A stretch of DNA of 64,000 nt from Planctomycetota bacterium. GTDB lineage: Bacteria > Planctomycetota > Planctomycetia > Gemmatales > Gemmataceae. The position numbers were made by a program, and so were the translations under genes. The stretch spans positions 1 through 64,000 of the forward strand of contig QWOS01000016.1 in NCBI GenBank assembly GCA_003669555.1, read 5' to 3'. Shown here piece after piece: positions 35,196 to 36,352 of this stretch; position 1 is the first letter of the stretch, and the number at the start of each line of letters is the position of its first letter. The notes below the pieces were generated by a model, which worked only from the letters and a program-made list of their open reading frames with translations, was not told where the DNA came from and ran no database searches.

Positions 35196-35317
35196 GGGGA
35201 TAGACCTTACAACTGGCGCAAAGCCCGCAATCCTGGGCAGGGGCTAAATCCGTTGGCTGAACGGAACCATCAGTAGTTATCGGTATTTTGCCAGCTTTAT
35301 ATGAGCAAAAAAGCATG

Positions 35318-35750
35318 TTTTGATCCGCAGATTACGCAGATTAACGCAGAAAAAGTAGAAGACCCTGGTGTCTGTTAGTTTTTCGTAAAATCTGCGCAAT
35401 CTGCGGATAATGGTTTTGATCCGCAGATTACGCAGATTAACGCAGAAAAAGCAAAAGACCTTGGTGTCTGTTCGTCTTTCGTAAAATCTGCGTAAATCTG
35501 CGCAATCTGCGGATAATGGTTTTGATCCACAGATTGCGCAGATTAACGCAGAAAAAGCAGAAGACCCTGGTGTCTGTTCGTTTTTCGTAAAATCTGAGTA
35601 AATCTGCGGATAATGGTTTTTGATCCACAGATTACCAAGATTAACGCAGAAAAAGCAGGAGGCGCTTAAATCTGTTCGTCTTCTGGTAAATCTGCGTTAA
35701 TCTGCGGATAATTGTCTTTATCCTCCGCAGATTTTCGCAGAGAAAGAGCG
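35318..35750. repeat. array of ~100-bp inverted-repeat units
   Basis: Four units start with GATCCGCAG or GATCCACAG at 35322, 35418, 35524 and 35622 (steps of 96, 106 and 98 bp), with a degenerate fifth from about 35718. Each unit has a left arm (GATCCGCAGATTACGCAG and on to ACGCAGAAAAA), a core containing GAC(C)CTGGTGTCTGTT, and a right arm (TTTTTCGTAAAATCTGCG to CTGCGGATAATGG) that is the inverse complement of the left arm with small differences. Arms contain 10-11-bp subrepeats of GCAGATTA. The fourth and fifth units overlap the 3' end of the GxxExxY gene. Each unit can form a long hairpin. Confidence 0.9.
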
Positions 35751-36112
35751 AGACGCTTATATTCCAGTGATGGGGCACCGAAGTTGATCAACAGCGCTTT
35801 TTCGATACCGGATGCTTTCAGGTAATGGATGACTTGTGCTTCCTCGATACCAGAGAGTTTTTGGAGGGCCTTGAGTTCGACCAAAATACTGCCATGACAA
35901 AGAAAATCAACGCGGTAGCTGGTCTGAAGGATCTTGCCCCGATAGTGAATCGGCAGCGGAAACTCACGATGATATGGGATGCCACAAGCTACCAATTCGT
36001 GTTCGAGAGCTTCATGATAAACGGCTTCAAGAAAACCGTGACCGAGTGTGCGATGAACGGTCATGGCCGCACCGATGATGGCGAAAGTCCAAGGGTCTCG
36101 ATTGGCCATCAT
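35666..36112 (-). CDS. GxxExxY-family protein (PD-(D/E)XK nuclease-like)
   Basis: A 148-aa protein with the family motif G-F-L-E-A-V-Y (G26, E29, Y32) in HGFLEAVYHEALEHEL. The nuclease-like core is YRVDFLCHGSILVELKAL, where D69, E79 and K81 correspond to the PD-(D/E)XK catalytic pattern (PDDEXK_3). The C-terminal 22 residues (from LRKSAEDKDNYPQINADLP) are encoded by the last repeat units of the flanking array, so the gene and the repeat are fused. AAGGAG lies 7 bp before the ATG at 36112. Family members are often found beside short repeats, but their biological role is not established. Divergent from the efflux operon. Confidence 0.9.
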   Translation of the reverse strand: MMANRDPWTFAIIGAAMTVHRTLGHGFLEAVYHEALEHELVACGIPYHREFPLPIHYRGKILQTSYRVDFLCHGSILVELKALQKLSGIEEAQVIHYLKASGIEKALLINFGAPSLEYKRLALSLRKSAEDKDNYPQINADLPEDEQI

Positions 36113-36352
36113 GGCATGGCTCCTTGCGTTTCACCCGGCAATTTACCAGCTTTTCATCAATGAAAAAGGCTTGCTTTTCATTCATTTCACCACTCAGGAA
36201 GTTAAATCAGCTCTCATCTGTACAATTGCCACTCACCCTACAACCGGCCAACTCCGATACTATCCATGGCTGGATCGATCCTGCCGGTGCGCGGGCACGG
36301 CCTTTTTTATCGCATTCCCGGCAGGCTCAGGTAAACGGAACAGGACACCCAA

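Follow-up and report, generated by a model that had tools for sequence, protein, structure and literature searches.

The array and the GxxExxY gene in the window

The window, that is, the whole stretch of 64,000 nucleotides that was analysed, lies on contig C87 of a 3.43-Mb assembly that is 60% complete, and it carries the single GxxExxY gene of that assembly, with an array of inverted repeats at the 3′ end of the gene. The features of the locus are:

35281..35298, + strand: left member of an imperfect direct repeat of 18 nt that lies outside the whole locus (15 of 18 positions the same as in the right member)
35318..35413, no strand: gene-less unit 1, arms 35323-35342 and 35389-35408
35414..35519, no strand: gene-less unit 2, arms 35419-35446 and 35487-35514
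35520..35616, no strand: gene-less unit 3, arms 35537-35552 and 35593-35608
35617..35715, no strand: gene-less unit 4, arms 35638-35650 and 35691-35703
35666..36112, - strand: GxxExxY gene, 148 aa, PD-(D/E)XK nuclease fold (TIGR04256 and PF13366 profiles, AF2 model), with the invariants GxxExxY, D69, E79, K81, Q93 and Y97 (family alignment columns)
35669..35743, - strand: repeat-coded C-terminal tail, codons 124-148, past the conserved domain (low-confidence in the model, exceptional among homologues)
35720..35741, + strand: degenerate iteron arm, ATCCTCCGCAGATTTTCGCAGA, on the downstream side of the gene-bearing unit, through which the ORF reads (from the sequence, and from its place and direction, which are those of the homologues' downstream arms)
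36113..36160, - strand: site at which homologues have the upstream arm, none being recognisable here (consensus-arm match p 0.06-0.42)
36136..36153, + strand: right member of the same imperfect repeat (15 of 18 positions shared with the left member)

The four inverted-repeat units of 96-106 bp and the degenerate fifth that were described in a first-pass annotation of this DNA are found at 35318-35715 and 35720-35741. Units 1-4 are direct tandem copies with start spacings of 96, 106 and 97-98 bp and 67-94% identity to the reference unit; these four near-identical gene-less units look like the result of tandem duplication in place. Each is an inverted repeat with a score reached by 0-0.3% of shuffles. 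The arms, built of ATCCGCAGATTACGCAGATTAACGCAGA, are inverted as had been reported, but their exact matches of 13-28 bp are somewhat shorter than the 33 bp or so then claimed. The inner edge of unit 4, AAAGCAGGAGGCGCTT, weakly resembles the 3′ end of the GxxExxY gene (shuffle p 0.026); beyond this weak trace, derivation of the units from the ends of the gene was unsupported in units 1-3. No Rfam family reached its gathering score in the array, where the hairpins gave sub-threshold miRNA-type matches only, and a search of the 60%-complete assembly with up to two mismatches gave no further occurrence of the array repeat.

The assignment of the gene to the GxxExxY (PDDEXK_3) family was borne out by matches to TIGR04256 (E 4.9e-41, 139.7 bits, cut-off 35) and PF13366 (PDDEXK_3; E 9.5e-38, 129.6 bits, cut-off 22). 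The protein has the motif G26xxE29xxY32 and the catalytic residues D69, E79 and K81, which had been picked out earlier, together with all 12 invariant columns of the family. It is also correct that the last two units supply C-terminal codons, since codons 124-148 (35743-35669) pass through the degenerate half unit and on through the right-hand half of unit 4. A functional fusion of nuclease and repeat did not hold up. Among 74 homologues the ORF ends before the downstream arm in 63, inside it in 6 and beyond it in 5, and in the AlphaFold (AF2) model of the window protein, which has a pLDDT of 87, the tail is disordered (pLDDT about 52). The repeat-coded tail of the window protein is a local accident. 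At another locus (L218, G022:C22) it is the upstream neighbour that runs into the arm and takes its final codons from iterons; neighbours, like GxxExxY genes, can thus gain repeat-coded tails.

The window gene has a downstream arm only (35720-35741), with no recognisable upstream counterpart (IR score 9), and so it is not bracketed. Because of this, and because the ORF passes through the downstream arm and the assembly has no other occurrence of the repeat, the window copy looks like an eroded, old or immobile member of its family. Nothing in the window genome points to activity of the unit. The 18-nt direct repeat that flanks the block of array and gene (shuffle p 0.004, uncorrected for multiple looks) could be a decayed target duplication or could be due to chance.

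Inverted iteron arms and their distribution

GxxExxY genes were gathered from about 60 of the phylum's genomes, 87 of the genes being full-length, and an inverted repeat straddling the gene was looked for; the control windows had identical geometry and were displaced along the loci concerned. Inverted arms straddle 74 of the 87 genes, compared with 4 of 334 control windows. Among genes of other genomes, drawn from more than 20 phyla and from archaea, the count is 61 of 77, compared with 2 of 385 controls. The link between gene and repeat, first proposed from one locus, is therefore strong and general. Armed groups include Acidobacteriota, Chloroflexota, Pseudomonadota, Bacteroidota, Verrucomicrobiota, Armatimonadota, Chlamydiota and Methanosarcinales, and arms are likewise present in Bacteroides, Sphingomonas, Bernardetia and Gemmatirosa replicons. 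GxxExxY was not found in phage records, and plasmid records held only eight, with none in a mobilisable plasmid.

Read inward, an arm opens with a short tip (TTMACC, ATCC or TTAGCC), after which come about three iterons, each 8-10 bp long. The iteron word is a heptamer, C[A/G]CNNA[G/T], that recurs every 8-10 bp and reads into the gene; there are on average 2.66 heptamers per arm, compared with 0.31 after shuffling. Sequence conservation ends about 3 nt outside the ACC of the TTMACC tip. About 15-20% of GxxExxY genes have no detectable arms. Genes of Prevotella nigrescens (L130), Treponema saccharophilum (L133) and Fusobacteria (L134) lack clear iteron arms; a short inverted pair, ACACGGATTCG, is seen in T. 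saccharophilum and longer repeats lie near the fusobacterial gene, and other types of end may therefore exist.

The iterons fall into a G class (CACAGAG, CACGGAG, CGCAGAG, CACGAAG, CATGAAG and others) and a T class (CGCAGAT, CACAGAT, CGCGGAT). On a tree of 123 proteins the base at iteron position 7 (G or T) changes 5 times, compared with 21 times when shuffled, and none of 200 shuffles was as low. The window conforms: its protein is of the 'NFG' type, which goes with T-class (CGCAGAT) iterons, and its arms and four gene-less units are of the CGCAGAT class. The agreement of class and clade may reflect recognition or joint inheritance; whichever is the cause, gene and arms form one unit. A relation between protein and repeat, as suggested in the first-pass annotation, is plausible because iteron class tracks the protein tree; the mobility suggested along with it is, for the window copy, putative.

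Co-occurrence of repeat and gene across genomes, which had been proposed as a check, was observed. GxxExxY is present in 96 of 199 genomes of the phylum, in up to 15 copies each. It occurs in 65 of the 79 genomes with either repeat class, compared with 31 of the 120 without repeats (Fisher 2e-15), in 28 of the 31 genomes with T-class repeats (Fisher 2e-7) and in 48 of the 60 with G-class repeats (Fisher 4e-9), p-values that are not strict, as the 199 genomes are related. In six genomes, several of them incomplete assemblies, there are at least two G-class (CACAGAG) repeats and no GxxExxY gene was found. The 12.3-Mb genome G044 has 662 hits to the G-class pattern. Its paired units (L343-L347, L396) are flanked on both outer sides by small GCCTTCGGCGAA hairpins, which may be a preferred target or a part of the unit.

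Insertion sites, gene-less units and outer TIR elements

The joined flanks of gene-bearing units match uninterrupted sites in relatives, and the alignments put the gap at the arms. Such empty sites were found for L227, L221, L220, L014, L218, L021 and L016. Neighbours checked by Pfam are of the SufBD/SufS type at L227, 2-oxoglutarate dehydrogenase/lipoyl transferase at L221, GroEL/DnaJ at L016, and a membrane-fusion/RND pair at L021, where the junction reads ...GAATAA/TATG... At a given orthologous place, the gene and both arms are either all there or all missing. Scans for direct repeats of fixed length (TSDs) at the arm tips revealed no excess, being negative or explained by the inverted tips.

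By simple, and hence approximate, ORF calling, the median distance from tip to neighbouring ORF is 16 bp on the upstream side and 24 bp on the downstream side. The insertions lie in operon gaps and point downstream: where the neighbours are co-directional, 70 of 77 GxxExxY genes have the neighbours' direction (p 4e-14), which suggests expression by read-through, or selection for read-through. Short intergenic gaps and a capacity to form hairpins are what one would also expect of regulatory or structural DNA or RNA repeats, such as terminators or attenuators, lying beside the gene by chance. We consider this highly improbable: in many phyla the gene has an arm on either side, the two in inverted order, the arms track the protein clade and are gained together with the gene, and the window array has no Rfam family at gathering score.

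Some units lie in well-known surroundings. In Sphingomonas parapaucimobilis (L131, NZ_CP155749.1) the order is fabD-[unit]-fabG, with arms CACGCGAAGGCGCGA, and in Bacteroides finegoldii (L129, NZ_OY725952.1) it is radA-[unit], with arms ACCACAGAGGACGCAGAG; both are inside essential or housekeeping operons. At L087 (G122:C1:359778-364119) a unit stands between cas4 (PF01930) and cas1 (PF01867) of a CRISPR locus, and hence a CRISPR-adjacent GxxExxY can be an insertion and not a Cas component. In G034 (L016) and G185 (L094), which belong to different families, the groEL-dnaJ gap is occupied by two different GxxExxY genes whose arms also differ, either through independent insertion at one site or through replacement.

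Units without the gene also exist in the phylum, so the MITE-like aspect noted at the outset was well founded. In G185 there are units with shared arms and mutually unrelated interiors of about 65-170 bp, and the gene-bearing and gene-less units of this genome have the same arms and unrelated interiors. One gene-less unit of 144 bp (L296) is missing at the orthologous place in two relatives. In G037 a full gene (L377) is accompanied by two derivative copies at different places (L356 and L378), in which codons ~38-100 have been deleted between two GAACTTC words. As part of the explanation that we favour as a whole, gene-less units with the same arms are probably non-autonomous companions of gene-bearing units.

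In two genomes with clear recent spread, G004 and G037, the repeated segment extends past the arms to ordinary TIRs with TSDs. The G004 copies (L348-L352) are a MITE, which we take to be IS5/IS1031-like, with the TIR GAGCCTGTTTAAAAAGT, the iteron pair in mid-element, and TNA TSDs at 5 of 5 copies (TGA, TTA, TCA, TCA and TGA). The deletion derivatives of G037 have the outer TIR GTAACCGTTC and 8-bp TSDs, namely AAATGATC on both sides of L356 and CGCCGGGC/TGCCGGGC at L378. These copies were moved by other elements, with the iteron unit as passenger. Because the two clearest cases of dispersal end in unrelated outer TIRs, spread driven by the nuclease is a matter that we infer.

If all units behaved in this way, the gene would be a passenger cassette, spread by unrelated TIR transposons or MITEs as well as by horizontal transfer and accompanying homologous recombination; the arms would have another role, such as autoregulation or termination. 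The G004 and G037 copies and the lack of TSDs at the arm tips are in keeping with such an origin. Outer TIRs and TSDs were seen in these two genomes only, however; most units have none and end at the tips, conservation ceasing about 3 nt outside the ACC, and empty sites are restored at the arms. Nor would riding explain the near-constant, exact centring of the gene between matching inverted arms. On balance, it seems unlikely that the unit is a passenger in general.

The enzyme, its possible action and known systems

The best fold match of the modelled window protein in the PDB is Cas4 SSO0001 (4ic1), followed by Argonaute-associated Cas4, RecE/LHK-Exo, AdnAB and MGME1; the catalytic domain of the homing endonuclease I-Bth0305I is a weaker match. 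No significant sequence match to any PDB chain was found, and PADLOC Cas4 matches to GxxExxY were sub-threshold. The active site of the family is D-ExK with a Q...Y pair, of which Q93 is invariant and Y97 near-invariant. Judged by the fold matches, the D-ExK site and the Q...Y pair, GxxExxY appears to be a minimal member of the RecB/Cas4 branch of PD-(D/E)XK nucleases. The three phased iterons of each arm suggest that an oligomer may form on each end.

A nuclease of the homing type would cut either the gene-less units or empty sites that resemble arms; gene conversion would then copy the gene into them, with the arms as homology and the gene-less units as targets. This would account for the shared arms and unrelated interiors of the G185 units and for the absence of TSDs at the arm tips, and it fits the match to the I-Bth0305I domain. 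The empty sites miss whole units, arms included, so prior gene-less targets are not required, and internal-deletion derivatives exist; homing is thus a somewhat doubtful explanation.

We consider it probable that the window copy is an eroded representative of a small, widespread type of insertion unit, composed of a nuclease gene and inverted arms, with gene-less companions, and spread by the nuclease. The unit is a GxxExxY gene of 115-150 codons between two inverted iteron arms, and the gene would be expressed via operon read-through. The protein would bind the helically phased iterons and cut at or near the ends of the unit; units would then be copied into new gaps or into other units, either by the repair machinery of the host or by transposition in trans that leaves no fixed-length duplication. 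In the window, a gene-less unit would have been tandemly duplicated to form the array, the upstream arm would have decayed, and the reading frame would have run into the remaining arm. On the evidence of the sequences, mobilisation by the nuclease is the leading, though unproven, mechanism. A bolder proposal, which we put forward tentatively, is that GxxExxY, as a single Cas4/RecB-like PD-(D/E)XK nuclease recognising helically phased inverted iterons, could be the founding enzyme of a class of self-spreading DNA units that extends across bacteria and archaea and has so far gone unrecognised. It would move both itself and its gene-less companions into operon gaps, leaving no TSDs and using no DDE, HUH, serine or tyrosine recombinase.

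GxxExxY is a very common family of 'function unknown'; its position between inverted iterons points to a likely role and to a substrate that can be tested. Many genomes contain 'ACCACAGAGACACAGAG' and 'CGCAGATTAACGCAGAT' repeats, and these are likewise explained as the ends of one type of unit. If the nuclease moves the units, it would be a new enzymatic route to mobility and would form a counterpart to REP/RAYT; if it does not, the result is a striking case of a nuclease cassette that is addicted to its repeats. It is the family and not the window copy that is of interest, the link being far wider than could be seen from the window. A search of the open-access literature by family name and repeat words yielded no description of the association between GxxExxY and repeats, the family being named in passing only; this absence is not proof of novelty.

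Among known systems, MITEs and autonomous TIR transposons also comprise gene-bearing elements together with internally deleted companions that share their inverted ends, but GxxExxY units have no TSD or DDE transposase and their ends are iterons. The likeness to retrons that had been suggested was not substantiated: there is no reverse transcriptase with an msr-msd RNA, GxxExxY is the sole ORF of the unit, and the common feature is the DNA iteron ends. Cas4 and RecB-like nucleases share the best fold match (4ic1) and the D-ExK plus Q...Y signature; GxxExxY is shorter, at about 115-150 aa, and lacks significant sequence matches to PDB chains, and in the kin of the window Cas4 is a separate gene. 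Homing endonucleases of the PD-(D/E)XK fold (of the I-Bth0305I and I-Ssp6803I type) are similar in being small stand-alone nuclease genes in gaps, where no TSD is expected. GxxExxY differs from them in having no intron or intein context, in being bracketed by inverted iterons and in its dispersed gene-less units.

The REP/REPIN-RAYT system also has a small nuclease gene flanked by inverted short repeats, dispersed gene-less inverted doublets, a repeat class that goes with the protein, and some genomes with repeats and no gene. Inverted flanking and dispersed doublets are found in the GxxExxY family and not in the window copy. The RAYT protein is an HUH/Y1 enzyme, kin to IS200/IS605, which is present in single copy and is not self-mobile, and REP is a palindrome with a tetranucleotide of the GTAG/GGAG type (PMC3686654, PMC3116915). 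In contrast, GxxExxY has PD-(D/E)XK fold and family matches only and no HUH/Y1 domain, its arms are about three tandem iterons of 8-10 bp and not 20-bp palindromes, and a genome can have as many as 15 copies of the gene, which is scattered among many phyla. By analogy, the GxxExxY unit may be read as REPIN/RAYT-like, with a Cas4/RecB-like PD-(D/E)XK nuclease in place of the HUH transposase.
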